From the NCBI GenBank assembly GCA_903909605.1, contig CAIVWH010000001.1:1-64000 (forward strand): a stretch of DNA of 64,000 nt. Reading direction: 5' to 3'. This DNA is from an uncultured Micrococcales bacterium (GTDB lineage: Bacteria; Actinomycetota; Actinomycetes; Actinomycetales; Microbacteriaceae). Positions 54,617-60,094 of this stretch are shown here, in pieces. The position numbers were made by a program, and so were the translations under genes. The notes beneath the pieces are model-generated. The model was given only the letters and a program-made list of their open reading frames with translations. It had not been told where the DNA came from and did not search any database. Every line of letters begins with the position of its first letter. The stretch's first letter is position 1.

Positions 54617-54669
54617 CCGATTATTCTTCATTGGCATCCCCTTATTTTTTGGGTGCTTCAGGAGTCAAA

Positions 54670-57600
54670 GTGAGCAAAAGCGATAGTTTCGTGCACCTTC
54701 ACGTGCACAGCGACTATTCCATGCTCGATGGTGCAGCCCACATAAAAGAGTTGGTCAAAGAGGTCGCTCGGCTTGAAATGCCTGCCGTGGCCGTTACCGA
54801 CCATGGCAACATGCATGCTGCCTTCGAATTTTTCAACGCCGCAACCGCCGCTGGAATCAAGCCCATCGTTGGCCTTGAAGCATACGTGTCGCCGGGGTCG
54901 CGCACCCTCAAAGAGCCGGTTCGCTGGCCGAGTGCCACCCTGGCCTCGAGCATTGACAAAGAAGACAATATCTCGGGTAACGGCGCTTACACTCACATGA
55001 CTCTGCTGAGTGAAAACACAGCCGGCATGCACAACCTCTTCAAGATGTCATCGCAGTCCTGGTTCGATGGCTTTTATCGCAAGCCACGCATCGACCTTGA
55101 GCTGATGCAGAGCTATGCCAAGGGCGTGATTGCAACCTCTGGCTGCGTGTCCGGCGAGATTCAGACTCGGCTGCGGCGCGGTGAATACGACGAAGCAAAG
55201 CAGCTCGCTGGCGCGCTGCGCGAGATCTTCGGCCAAGACAATTTCTTCATCGAGATTCAAAGGCACGGCATCTCTATCGAAGAGCGGGCCTTCGTCGAGT
55301 TGATTCGCCTAGCACGTGAGTTGAACATACCGTTGGTTGCCACCAATGACCTGCACTACAGCCATGCAACTCAGGCCGAGGCACATGAGGCGCTGCTGTG
55401 CGTTCAGACCAATACCAACATTTACAACCCAGATCGTTTCAAGCTCGATGTTCCAGAGTTCTACATCAAATCGCCTCAGCAGATGCGCGAATTGTTCAGC
55501 GACTTTCCAGAGGCCTGCGACAACACGCTGCTAATTGCCGAGCGAGTCTCCCTCGAATTCAAGAAGCGCGACCTTATGCCACGCTTCGATGTTCCGGCCG
55601 GCGAGACCGAATCCACCTGGTTCGCCAAGGAAGTGCACCGCGGATTGCGCGAGCGGTTCAACGGAAATGTTCCTGAGACGCACATCAGACAGGCCGATTA
55701 CGAAATCGACGTAATCAACAAGATGAATTTCCCCGGCTACTTCCTTGTGGTTGCAGACTTCATCGCCTGGGCTCGTCGCAACGGTGTGCGCGTCGGCCCC
55801 GGTCGCGGTTCTGCGGCCGGCGCAATCGTTGCCTGGGCATTGGGTATTACCGAGCTCGACCCAATCGAACACGGTCTAATCTTCGAGCGTTTCCTCAACC
55901 CTGAGCGAAAGTCGATGCCCGACATCGACATCGACTTTGACGACCGCGGCCGCGGCGAGGTCATTCGGTATGTCACCGAGAAATACGGCGATGACCGCGT
56001 TGCCCAGATCGTCACCTACAGCACCATCAAGGCAAAGCAGGCCCTGAAGGATGCTTCCCGAGTGCTCGATCTGCCATATTCCTCAGGCGAGAAGCTCACC
56101 AAGTTGCTGCCAAAGGCAATTATGGGTCGCGAAATCTCGCTAACCGAAGCCGTTGAGAAGCAGGTGGATGGCAAGGCGAACGAGCGCTTCAAAGAGGCTG
56201 CCGAGTTCCGCGCGGCGATCGAGGCCGAGGCTGATTCCCAGCGCATCTTCAATCTTGCTCGAGGCCTAGAGGGCCTCAAGCGTGGCTGGTCGGTGCACGC
56301 CGCTGGCGTGATCATGTCATCTGAACCCCTCGTTGAGGTCATGCCGATGATGAAGCGCGAGGAGGATGGCGCGATCATCACCCAGTTCGACCAACCGTCA
56401 AGCGAAAAGCTTGGCCTCTTGAAGATGGACTTCCTCGGACTTCGCAACCTGACGGTTCTCGAGGATGCACTGCAGAATATACGCACCAACCGCGGTGAGG
56501 AGGTGGTGCTCGAAAAGCTCGACCTCAACGGCGACGAGAAGACCTTCGAGCTACTCTCGCGTGGCGACACTCAGGGCGTGTTCCAGCTCGACGGCGCGCA
56601 GATGCGCACACTTCTTCGCCTTATGAAGCCATCCAAGTTTGAGCACATCTCTGCGGCTATCGCGCTATATCGCCCGGGGCCAATGGGCATGAACTCGCAC
56701 ACCAACTACGCACTGCGCAAAAACGGCCTGCAAGAGATAGAGCCGATTCACCAGGAGTTGGATCAGTCGCTCTCAGAAATTCTTGGCGAAACCTACGGCC
56801 TAATCGTTTATCAGGAGCAGGTTATGGCTGCAGCGCAAAAGGCTGCAGGGTTCACCCTGGGTCAGGCAGACCTGCTTCGTCGCGCCATGGGCAAGAAAGA
56901 CAAGGAGGAGCTGGACAAACAGTATGGCGACTTCTCTGCCGGCATGAAACAAAACGGTTACTCCGAAGGTGCAATCAAGAAACTTTGGGACACACTCGAG
57001 CCGTTTGCCGACTACGCATTCAACCGTGCGCACAGTGCCGCCTACGGAGTGATCAGTTATTGGACTGCCTATCTGAAGGCAAACTACACAGCCGAATATA
57101 TGGCAGCACTGCTGACCAGTGTCGGCGACAGTAAAGACAAACTCGGCATCTATCTGGCGGAGTGCCGCAAGCTGAATATCCAGGTGCTGCCACCAGATGT
57201 AAACGAGTCGGTCGGTAACTTCAGCGCAATTGGTAAAGACATTCGCTTCGGTCTTGGGGCAATTCGAAATGTCGGGCACAACGTGGTTTCGGCAATTGTT
57301 GAGACCCGCGCAGCCAAGGGGCGATTCACCGATTTCAACGACTTTCTCACCAAGGTTCCCCAGGTGGTTTGCACCAAGCGCACGGTTGCATCCCTTGCGC
57401 AAGCTGGCGCCTTCGACTCATTTGGTCACACTCGACGCGCACTGATTGAGATCCACGAGACCGCTGTCGACTCGCTGAGCGCCACTAAGCGCCAAGAGGC
57501 CCTTGGTCAAGACGACCTTTTCGGCGGCTTATTCGCCGACCACAGCGGTTTCGGGGTAGTGGTGCCTGATCGCGCCGAGTGGGGCAAAAAGGAAAAGTTG

Positions 57601-58338
57601 GCCAAAGAGCGAGAAATGCTTGGGCTCTACGTCAGCGATCACCCACTTGCCGGTCTTGAAGCTCAGGTGGCACGATTCAGCGAAATCTCAATAGCCGAGC
57701 TGCAAGACAATGAACGGCTCGAAGATGGCCAGGTCGTGACTGTTGCAGGATTGATCACCGCAATCGAGCGCAAGACGGCTCGAAGCGGAAATGCCTATGC
57801 AATCGTCACGCTCGAAGACCTCGACAGCGAGATGACCGTAATGCTGATGGGAAAGACCTATCTCGAATATGGTCCGAAGTTGGCAGCGGATCAATTCGTG
57901 GCCATCCGGGGTCGAATCTCAGTTCGCGATGACTCAAAGAACATCAACGCCCAACGCATCGACCTTATCGATGCGTCAATCGACGACAGTTCACCGGTTC
58001 AACTAAATGTGCTCGACTTCACGGCAACCAGGGACGCACTTCAAGACCTGGATCGAACACTGCGAAACTATCCCGGCAACGCCGATGTCTTTGTAAACAT
58101 GATTGATGGCAGTCGCAACGCCACTCGGTTCAGACTGCAGCACCGAGTTGCGCTGAGCGTGCCGATGATTTCAGAAATCAAGTCGATTTTTGGTTCGAAG
58201 GTGTTCATCGGAGGCGACGAACTAAACGATGTCAGCGGTGGTCTTGTAACTTCGCTGGTGATAGATCAGGGGATTGGCCTCGGTTCCGACGAGACCTTCT
58301 ATCACTTCGACAATAATGACGGCGTTGGATTCAACTGA
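54670..58338 (+). CDS. dnaE: DNA polymerase III alpha subunit DnaE
   Basis: The 1222-residue replicative polymerase has an N-terminal PHP domain (HLHVHSDYS, 9–17), the polymerase core with catalytic Asp residues in PDIDIDFDD (417–425), helix-hairpin-helix region and a C-terminal OB fold. GTG 54670 after AGGAG is chosen. The last 38 residues (58222–58335) lie antisense to the flavin reductase gene and look like an extension past the usual C-terminus, whose end would fall near SIFGSKVF (about 1175–1181). The extension may result from loss of the original stop codon. Confidence 0.96.
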   Translation: MSKSDSFVHLHVHSDYSMLDGAAHIKELVKEVARLEMPAVAVTDHGNMHAAFEFFNAATAAGIKPIVGLEAYVSPGSRTLKEPVRWPSATLASSIDKEDNISGNGAYTHMTLLSENTAGMHNLFKMSSQSWFDGFYRKPRIDLELMQSYAKGVIATSGCVSGEIQTRLRRGEYDEAKQLAGALREIFGQDNFFIEIQRHGISIEERAFVELIRLARELNIPLVATNDLHYSHATQAEAHEALLCVQTNTNIYNPDRFKLDVPEFYIKSPQQMRELFSDFPEACDNTLLIAERVSLEFKKRDLMPRFDVPAGETESTWFAKEVHRGLRERFNGNVPETHIRQADYEIDVINKMNFPGYFLVVADFIAWARRNGVRVGPGRGSAAGAIVAWALGITELDPIEHGLIFERFLNPERKSMPDIDIDFDDRGRGEVIRYVTEKYGDDRVAQIVTYSTIKAKQALKDASRVLDLPYSSGEKLTKLLPKAIMGREISLTEAVEKQVDGKANERFKEAAEFRAAIEAEADSQRIFNLARGLEGLKRGWSVHAAGVIMSSEPLVEVMPMMKREEDGAIITQFDQPSSEKLGLLKMDFLGLRNLTVLEDALQNIRTNRGEEVVLEKLDLNGDEKTFELLSRGDTQGVFQLDGAQMRTLLRLMKPSKFEHISAAIALYRPGPMGMNSHTNYALRKNGLQEIEPIHQELDQSLSEILGETYGLIVYQEQVMAAAQKAAGFTLGQADLLRRAMGKKDKEELDKQYGDFSAGMKQNGYSEGAIKKLWDTLEPFADYAFNRAHSAAYGVISYWTAYLKANYTAEYMAALLTSVGDSKDKLGIYLAECRKLNIQVLPPDVNESVGNFSAIGKDIRFGLGAIRNVGHNVVSAIVETRAAKGRFTDFNDFLTKVPQVVCTKRTVASLAQAGAFDSFGHTRRALIEIHETAVDSLSATKRQEALGQDDLFGGLFADHSGFGVVVPDRAEWGKKEKLAKEREMLGLYVSDHPLAGLEAQVARFSEISIAELQDNERLEDGQVVTVAGLITAIERKTARSGNAYAIVTLEDLDSEMTVMLMGKTYLEYGPKLAADQFVAIRGRISVRDDSKNINAQRIDLIDASIDDSSPVQLNVLDFTATRDALQDLDRTLRNYPGNADVFVNMIDGSRNATRFRLQHRVALSVPMISEIKSIFGSKVFIGGDELNDVSGGLVTSLVIDQGIGLGSDETFYHFDNNDGVGFN

Positions 58339-58722
58339 ATGAATCTCGCGGATTCGGCAAATCAGTACAGAGCTGACTCCCTCAAAGATGGGCAAGTTGT
58401 GAGGCCCGCGCATCCAATCTGAATCGCTAAATCGTTTGGTGTGATCCGCTGCCAGTTTTTGTGCCAGCGGGATGTTCGATTCGGTGAGCGTATGAATAGC
58501 GACGTACTTGGCCTTGCAAAGGTGTGCCCAGGTGCTAGCACCGCTTGCAACGTTGAAGCTCGCCAGCGGGGGAGTTGCGCCCAATGAAGTCATTGAGGTT
58601 GCGGTAAAACCGACTGGGTCACCGTTTTCGGCGTTGAGTGTGATGATGGCCACGCCGGAAGCGTGCCGGCGAAAGACCGCTTTGAGAGCATCAACTGGAT
58701 TTGTTTCGGCTGCGAAGGCCAT
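58222..58722 (-). CDS. Flavin reductase domain protein
   Basis: The 166-residue protein belongs to the FMN-binding flavin reductase-like family: HASGVAIITL, GFTATSMTSLGATPPLASF and the C-terminal NPLIYHQRSYKTT are typical of two-component oxygenase reductases or related FMN proteins. It has no oxygenase partner nearby. Its last 38 codons plus stop overlap dnaE in the opposite direction, yet the end keeps the family-typical LIYH block, so the overlap is real on this side. It diverges from hisD over 64 bases. Confidence 0.85.
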   Translation of the reverse strand: MAFAAETNPVDALKAVFRRHASGVAIITLNAENGDPVGFTATSMTSLGATPPLASFNVASGASTWAHLCKAKYVAIHTLTESNIPLAQKLAADHTKRFSDSDWMRGPHNLPIFEGVSSVLICRIREIHSVESNAVIIVEVIEGLVGTEANPLIYHQRSYKTTADIV

Positions 58723-58786
58723 TGAACCTACCTAAATATCCCTTACAGACTAAGTGAAAACTAGAATTGAGGGAATTGGAGGCCAA

Positions 58787-60094
58787 ATGTCGATTCGCAT
58801 TGAAGATCTGCGCGGCCAGGGCCTCACTTCGAACTTAGTTCGCGACTCGGTACCAAGGGCTGCGCTCGACATTACAGAGGCAGCAGTTGCTGCGGCCGAG
58901 ATCATCGAGGCGGTTCGAACCCGCGGAGTCGCGGCCATCTCCGAACTCAGCACTCGCTTCGACGGTTTTGTAGCCGAGCCGCTCTGGGCCAGCCAGGACG
59001 AACTCGAAACTGCCCTTGCCGAGCTAAGCCCGCAACTTCGCCAGGCCATCGAAGAATCGATTTCCAGGGTGCGCAAAGCCAGCAGGGATGCGCTGCCAAG
59101 CACTGTGACCACTCGGCACGAGGCCGGTGGCACAGTCACAACCCGCTACGTGCCAATCAAGTCGGTCGGGCTTTACGTGCCAGGGGGCAAGGCCGTCTAC
59201 CCATCGAGCGTCGTGATGAACGTTGTACCCGCTCAGGTTGCGGGGTCGACCCGACTCGTCATCGCAACTCCCGGGCAAAAGGCCTTCGGAGGTCGCGCGC
59301 ATCCCACGGTGTTGGCCACCGCGAAACTTCTCGGCGTCACAGATGTGCTCGTCATCGGTGGGGCGGCGGCAATTGCCGCGCTTGCATATGGTGTTGAGCA
59401 AATCGGCTTGGCGCCGGTTGACCTGATAACCGGCCCAGGTAACATTCATGTGGCTGCGGCCAAGCGCCTGGTGCGCGGCACAGTTGGCATTGACTCAGAA
59501 GCTGGAACCACCGAGATTCTCGTGCTTGCCGACCATTCCGCGAACGCGAGGTTCATTGCGCTCGATCTAATCAGTCAAGCCGAACACGACGAGGCAGCTG
59601 CTTGCGTTCTGGTGACCGACAGTGAGGCCCTAGCGCAGGCTGTGATTAGTCACATCGATGATTTGATTCCTCAGGCAACCCACAGCGAACGAATCGCGGT
59701 TGCCCTGTCGGGGCAGCAGAGCGCAGTTGTGCTCGTCGACTCGATCGAGGCTGCCATCGTCTTTGCCAATGAGTACGCAACCGAGCATCTCGAAATAGTC
59801 ACCGATGACGACACGAGTGTCTTGACCCAGATCACAAACGCCGGAGCGATTTTCGTTGGCAGCTATTCGCCGGTAGCACTCGGGGACTACATGGCTGGGT
59901 CGAATCACGTTTTGCCAACCGGCGGCACGGCTCGATTCAACGCCGGCCTTGGAGTGCACACTTTTCTTCGTGCTCAGCAGGTAGTCGACTATTCACAGAG
60001 CGACCTGGCTGAGATAGCTCAAAAGATTGAAACGTTCGCCAGGGCAGAGGGCCTGGATGCTCATGGTCAGGCCGTTTCAGAACGACTCAGGTAG
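58787..60094 (+). CDS. hisD: Histidinol dehydrogenase
   Basis: The 435-residue zinc enzyme catalyses the last two steps of histidine synthesis. Blocks: SVGLYVPGGKAVYPSSVVMN, TGPGNIHVAAAKR, AGTTEILVLADHSAN, LISQAEHDE and NHVLPTGGTARF. ATG 58787 after TTGGAGG is preferred over GTG 58754. Other his genes are not next to it here; they may lie elsewhere. nrdR follows. Confidence 0.95.
   Translation: MSIRIEDLRGQGLTSNLVRDSVPRAALDITEAAVAAAEIIEAVRTRGVAAISELSTRFDGFVAEPLWASQDELETALAELSPQLRQAIEESISRVRKASRDALPSTVTTRHEAGGTVTTRYVPIKSVGLYVPGGKAVYPSSVVMNVVPAQVAGSTRLVIATPGQKAFGGRAHPTVLATAKLLGVTDVLVIGGAAAIAALAYGVEQIGLAPVDLITGPGNIHVAAAKRLVRGTVGIDSEAGTTEILVLADHSANARFIALDLISQAEHDEAAACVLVTDSEALAQAVISHIDDLIPQATHSERIAVALSGQQSAVVLVDSIEAAIVFANEYATEHLEIVTDDDTSVLTQITNAGAIFVGSYSPVALGDYMAGSNHVLPTGGTARFNAGLGVHTFLRAQQVVDYSQSDLAEIAQKIETFARAEGLDAHGQAVSERLR

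Follow-up and report, generated by a model that had tools for sequence, protein, structure and literature searches.

In the window, by which we mean the whole 64,000-nucleotide stretch of DNA analysed here, the replicative polymerase gene dnaE very probably lost its stop codon and ran antisense into a convergent flavin reductase gene (FR), and a lasting, acidic, flexible tail now appears to constrain FR's synonymous codons. In the proposed history, the ancestor of a large clade within a small-genome actinobacterial genus would have lost the ordinary dnaE stop, probably once, and translation would then have continued antisense through the 3' end of FR. The read-through tail would have become an enduring C-terminus of the polymerase, and FR codons in the overlap would from then on have been held by their meaning in DnaE. 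At the level of sequence, the genomes compared here document the overlap and where it occurs, together with an acidic bias, purifying selection acting on the DnaE frame and a dnaE stop that moves between lineages.

The gene that carries the tail has the PHP, alpha NTPase, finger, HhH and OB domains of a PolIII alpha subunit (DnaE1), and a probe made of its C-terminal 345 residues finds a single match in its own genome. Its start is likely the GTG at 54670, which is preceded by AGGAG at 54660-54664; TTG 54631, the mechanical start of the open reading frame, was set aside for this reason. FR starts with an ATG at 58722 on the minus strand. An initial sequence-only reading had proposed that dnaE runs on for 38 codons over the end of FR, and both frames are indeed open: within the overlap, 38 DnaE sense codons plus the dnaE stop face 38 FR codons plus the FR stop. 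The genes are read codon against codon, with FR position 3 facing dnaE position 1, and in this phase the only FR codons able to stop DnaE are TTA, CTA and TCA. The start of FR adjoins a divergent open reading frame (window 58754-60094) that we take, from its sequence, to be histidinol-dehydrogenase-like.

Table 1. The dnaE and flavin reductase genes and the parts of their overlap (window coordinates).
Feature	Position	Strand	Remarks
dnaE, DNA polymerase III alpha subunit	54670..58338	+	PRK05673.1 match, 1463.8 bits; likely GTG start; ends in the overprinted tail
Flavin reductase gene (FR), PF01613, 166 aa	58222..58722	-	older occupant of the overlap
Tail-to-tail dnaE/FR overlap, 117 bp	58222..58338	both strands	codon-complementary phase
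Antisense-derived DnaE tail NDVSGGLVTSLVIDQGIGLGSDETFYHFDNNDGVGFN	58225..58335	+	37 codons facing FR sense codons
dnaE codon facing the FR stop	58222-58224	+	one codon beyond the 37 that face FR sense codons
dnaE stop TGA	58336-58338	+	faces FR serine codon TCA
FR stop codon TAG	58222-58224	-	from the sequence and the ORF reading

Which of the two genes is the older occupant? The usual end of DnaE had been placed near 58210, and the endings found in other genera would map to about 58206-58218. In ten other-genus genomes DnaE ends 4-8 residues past the ...xLG of its last helix, and in 16 distant actinobacterial loci that served as outgroups (13 of them also used for the structure model below) it ends 4-11 residues past xLG. 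FR was not found in these 16 loci, nor on the fetched stretch in eight of the ten other-genus genomes; of the remaining two, one has it 1.7 kb away and one (G078) has it with a 4-bp overlap. FR, for its part, keeps the C-terminal block typical of its family, as the sequence-only reading had held. The overlapped residues fall largely within the Flavin_Reduct domain (residues 17-162), the alignment to the best solved relative reaches residue 160, and the LLYxxRxY block at the FR end is kept in 20 same-genus genomes with an overlap of at most 18 bp. Since the FR end is conserved in the domain and in relatives without the overlap, and since other DnaE proteins end at the ordinary place, it is DnaE that grew into FR, and dnaE is the newcomer as first suggested. 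The converse, a reductase that arrived later, is ruled out by the domain, by LLYxxRxY in non-overlap relatives and by the solved relative. The observation named beforehand as speaking against overprinting, the same DnaE tail in relatives that lack FR, did not turn up in any genome that we examined.

The sequence-only reading had attributed the tail to loss of a stop. The extension of DnaE into FR stands, and from it we infer the stop-loss event, of which the exact mutation cannot be named. The extension event is old, so that even the nearest relative keeps no ancestral stop near 58210-58225. This relative (G037) has an FR 94% identical to that of the window, and its dnaE stop comes 9 bp sooner, opposite a different FR serine TCA. 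In all 37 species with a long overlap, the dnaE stop lies opposite an FR Leu codon (CTA/TTA) or Ser codon (TCA), so a synonymous change in FR can lengthen or shorten the polymerase.

The distribution also indicates an old event. Our same-genus sample comprised 67 genomes, of which 61 have a readable dnaE/FR junction; the other six are G011, G044, G055 and G066, with neither a dnaE C-terminal match nor FR, G061, with FR and no dnaE match, and G015, where dnaE is cut by a contig end. A 57-123-bp overlap in the phase of the window occurs at 37/61 junctions, a 31-bp overlap in another phase at 4/61, and an overlap of at most 18 bp, gaps included, at 20/61. The 37 long-overlap species form one group (SH-aLRT 88) in a tree of the DnaE core and the FR N-terminus. 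A more careful tree, built with 33 of the 37 overlap rows (without the fragmentary G037, G034, G026 and G049) and without eight of the ten other-genus genomes, places them on one side of a branch with one change, at a modest support of 69/83. These trees make it probable that the long overlap arose once, in an ancestor shared by 37 of the 61 species with readable junctions. A recent, species-specific stop loss is ruled out by the spread over 37 species and by the trees. The 31-bp clade (loci L027, L028, L029 and L048; genomes G064, G024, G003 and G052) is separate from the long-overlap group in the careful tree (100/100) and has a short DnaE tail, e.g. AQSAVSAGVK, an independent, smaller antisense extension of DnaE.

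So, is the tail used, or is it simply open? It might be a harmless by-product, the stop having been lost and the read-through tolerated in an antisense phase that is often open, with DnaE residues under no selection. We regard this as highly improbable. What speaks for it is the ease with which the phase stays open: if FR codons are sampled according to the usage of each genome while the protein is kept unchanged, the probability of an open tail averages 0.42 per species. The tail ends also differ by up to 22 codons among lineages. A single open frame is unremarkable by chance; all 37 being open, together with selection at the codon level, exceeds chance. The product of the probabilities for all 37 is 1.6e-17, a figure that ignores kinship and is computed for species picked by their overlap.

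The synonymous sites of FR weigh heavily against a by-product. In 14 overlap pairs, FR-synonymous differences number 63/320 inside the overlap vs 761/1537 outside (Fisher 6e-24), and they are lower inside in 14/14 pairs, with only a small reduction in G036/G043 (9/18 v 76/122) and G008/G040 (8/20 v 64/130). Just outside the overlap (FR column 115 on) the same pairs show 140/322. At the corresponding FR end, nine non-overlap control pairs show 82/190 vs 411/854 (p 0.23). The 14 and nine pairs, each of two close relatives and all on separate branches, were hand-picked following a wider first look with the same outcome (87/380 v 856/1672 in 17 overlap pairs, 91/222 v 479/1024 in ten control pairs). 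When only columns 146-166 are counted, the pairs without overlap drop a little as well, to 57/150 against 359/740 in columns 20-128. For the pair to which the window belongs, G000/G037, the counts are 2/29 inside vs 70/120 outside (p 2e-7).

The position of the dnaE stop provides a further control. In FR columns 133-143, differences number 5/42 where these columns lie within a 108-117-bp overlap, 44/91 where they lie past the end of a 57-75-bp overlap, and 52/83 where there is no overlap. This comparison took 13 of the 14 overlap pairs, G014/G057 (overlaps of 87 and 93) being left out. The protected FR stretch ends at each lineage's dnaE stop. Furthermore, the number of residue differences in the DnaE frame is 80, about half of the 169.6 ± 8.3 expected if FR alone were constrained.

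Codon choice points the same way. Under the codon null, applied to columns 146-162 in the 37 species, acidic DnaE residues number 117 vs 46.6 expected and basic ones 18 vs 68.6, a departure of this size occurring only in overlap species. The corresponding counts in 21 other species (a set that includes G061, whose dnaE is unseen and which also enters one control pair of the first look) are 10 acidic (12.5 expected), 49 basic (41.1) and 5 stops (11.1). No stop falls in these columns in the 37 (23.9 expected); this is in part a matter of definition, since the first stop was taken as the end of the overlap. At column 153, FR leucine is encoded by CTC in 24/24 overlap species with Leu there vs 5/21 others. 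The synonymous, codon-null and residue tests together largely refute the by-product explanation. As judged from these substitution and codon patterns, the tail is under purifying selection in the DnaE frame, and we infer from this selection that it is translated in the cell. Both strands are open, one frame is ancestral and the other derived, and the derived frame is under purifying selection; the suggestion of an overprinted DnaE tail is thus strongly supported at the sequence level by the synonymous-site tests.

Convergent genes often share terminators. The synonymous constraint could therefore come from an RNA or DNA element, such as a bidirectional terminator or a structure between the two genes, rather than from DnaE coding. 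Minus-strand RNA does fold slightly better than shuffles (z -1.9), although on the plus strand z is about -0.6 (-0.55). A search for terminator-like sites returned none in the overlap and one nearby, at 57963-57943 on the minus strand, a yield no greater than that of shuffles. Change is slowed at FR position 3, the one that serves as DnaE position 1 (0.196 v 0.483 differences per codon), whereas FR position 1 shows no slowing (0.105 v 0.104). The acidic bias tracks the DnaE frame, and pairs with 4-bp-overlap species show no drop (G017/G048, 3/27 v 9/121; G029/G031, 11/24 v 50/104). We consider an element of this kind very improbable as the source of the constraint, and continue with coding in the DnaE frame.

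Many long overlaps between bacterial genes have turned out to be annotation errors (PMC2478687), and most of the tail-bearing genomes are fragmented, which would fit misassembly or an annotation artefact of metagenome genomes. An artefact would, however, have to recur in the genomes of 37 species and produce the same codon-level signal throughout, and the window's own genome (1.34 Mb) is 97.97% complete, which makes the chance of this negligible. Selection in the new frame is what tells real long overlaps from misannotated ones, and the genus supplies natural controls in its non-overlap species, in the 31-bp overlap in another phase and in stops at different places.

Gain of C-terminal sequence by stop loss (PMC4494051) and long convergent overlaps (PMC2478687) are already known from the accounts cited. 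The de novo C-termini described by Andreatta et al. 2015 (PMC4494051) are likewise old proteins extended by stop loss into a formerly non-coding piece. Those cases are reported as recent, polymorphic, from yeast and flies and derived from non-coding sequence, whereas the DnaE tail is old, comes from the antisense of a coding gene, and appears to be selected in both frames. The convergent overlaps of Palleja et al. 2008 (PMC2478687) are similarly tail-to-tail and >60 bp, with 54 cases that might be true; they were judged by gene length vs orthologues, while here codon-level selection in the new frame was tested and the gene is a replicative polymerase. In E. coli O157:H7, an antisense frame also gains coding function (laoB, ano, pop), and the cases described are separate small genes, whereas the tail discussed here was added to an essential protein and persists through much of a genus. 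We found no earlier report of an antisense dnaE tail in the literature searched. What sets the present case apart is its age, the essential protein concerned, evidence, backed by natural controls, that the antisense frame is selected, and a function that may lie in the replisome. Silent FR codons in the overlap are no longer silent. With the dnaE/FR pair, the birth of protein tails from antisense can be put to a direct test, and the pair may also show the origin of a replisome contact.

What might the tail do? Its net charge, counted with the five residues before the overlap, is -3 to -10 in 37/37 species. It is predicted to be disordered: in an AlphaFold model of 545 residues, pLDDT is about 25-36 after residue 500. 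The model is weak (mean pLDDT 58.9, from 14 sequences, the other 13 of which lack the tail) and tells us little beyond a tail without confident structure. An L-F pair occurs in 27/37 tails, as in VVEQTGELFGQ (subclade A), LEVNQRTLFDS and VEQRGLFGADE; LL occurs in 4/37, and neither in 6/37, which are the window and its five nearest relatives. The window's tail peptide GSDETFYHFDNNDGVGFN comes from this clade without LF; the window has GLGSDETFYHF here, and three sisters have DQAFFNF or DQAFLNF.

The sliding-clamp motif, QxxLF, is described as C-terminal in PolC and as xxxLF in DnaE3 (PMC12309361). The E. coli alpha subunit is reported to have a second, C-terminal clamp motif, 1154-QVELEF-1159, at an end that also binds tau (PMC2705854), and actinobacterial NucS to end in the clamp motif [E/K]-[L/Y]-[T/R]-L-F (PMC8228993). 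The DnaE tail resembles the ends of E. coli alpha, PolC and NucS, as described there, in being a flexible C-terminal peptide with a hydrophobic pair; it differs in that its putative motif is loose, and absent in the window's clade, and in its origin by antisense overprinting. By analogy, the tail may be a flexible replisome contact, likeliest a second, weak clamp-binding peptide in which LF is preceded by acidic, Q or E residues. We advance this tentatively, at rather less than an even chance. In 26/37 tails, two or three residues separate LF from a preceding Q, E or K.

Some support comes from the internal clamp motif of DnaE, GQxDLF. Its Q is kept in 4/4 species of the 31-bp clade and in 19/21 other species without the long overlap (G015, with its junction cut off, among the 19), and is lost in 14/33 readable tail species. 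These include 12/12 readable loci of subclade A (L059 and L065-L075, L070 included), where GE or GD replaces GQ and the tails carry ELFG, QLFG or QLFA beside the Q-less internal motif. Within the genus, Q losses are thus found only in species with a C-terminal DnaE extension, a pattern that fits a new clamp contact taking over. Clamp binding nevertheless stays a suggestion. The window and its five nearest relatives do without LF, and four further species have LL. At the motif position, Q or E is found as often in the antisense that species without the overlap leave unread (19/21, G061 again counted among the 21) as in the tails (33/37), and four subclade-A species have K there. Outside the genus, moreover, the internal Q is absent from G077, G072, G071 and G080, which have no extension at all.

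Alternatively, selection may maintain the tail as an acidic, disordered extension with no part in clamp binding, which for instance contacts the clamp loader tau, mimics the acidic SSB tail or aids solubility; we give this an even chance. Negative charge is the best-supported property of the tail, and the window's clade does without LF, while the binding of tau by the E. coli alpha C-terminus offers a precedent for such a contact. The frequency of the L-F pair and the restriction of within-genus Q losses to species with extensions argue the other way. Returning to the clamp, strings of the form Q-x-x-hydrophobic-F, such as KQSLIF, occur in the FR antisense of some non-overlap species. It is conceivable, if doubtful, that overprinting gave the polymerase a new clamp peptide from a latent antisense string of this kind, later tuned to acidic-LF, which replaced the internal motif in one subclade.

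A NucS match is present in 50/67 genus genomes, and the protein ends in LF in 29 of the 30 loci read among these 50, which counts in favour of the clamp reading. The four genomes of the 31-bp clade yielded no NucS match; G003 and G052 are 93% and 98% complete, and a loss of the pathway of this mismatch-repair endonuclease in that clade is possible. The two species that lack the internal Q without a long overlap, G063 and G012, both have an intergenic C-terminal extension. Together with G001 (loci L030, L049 and L050), they carry Ala/Ser/acidic DnaE extensions that derive from the intergenic gap and not from antisense, and that end in GHLV, SHLV or GHIFG.
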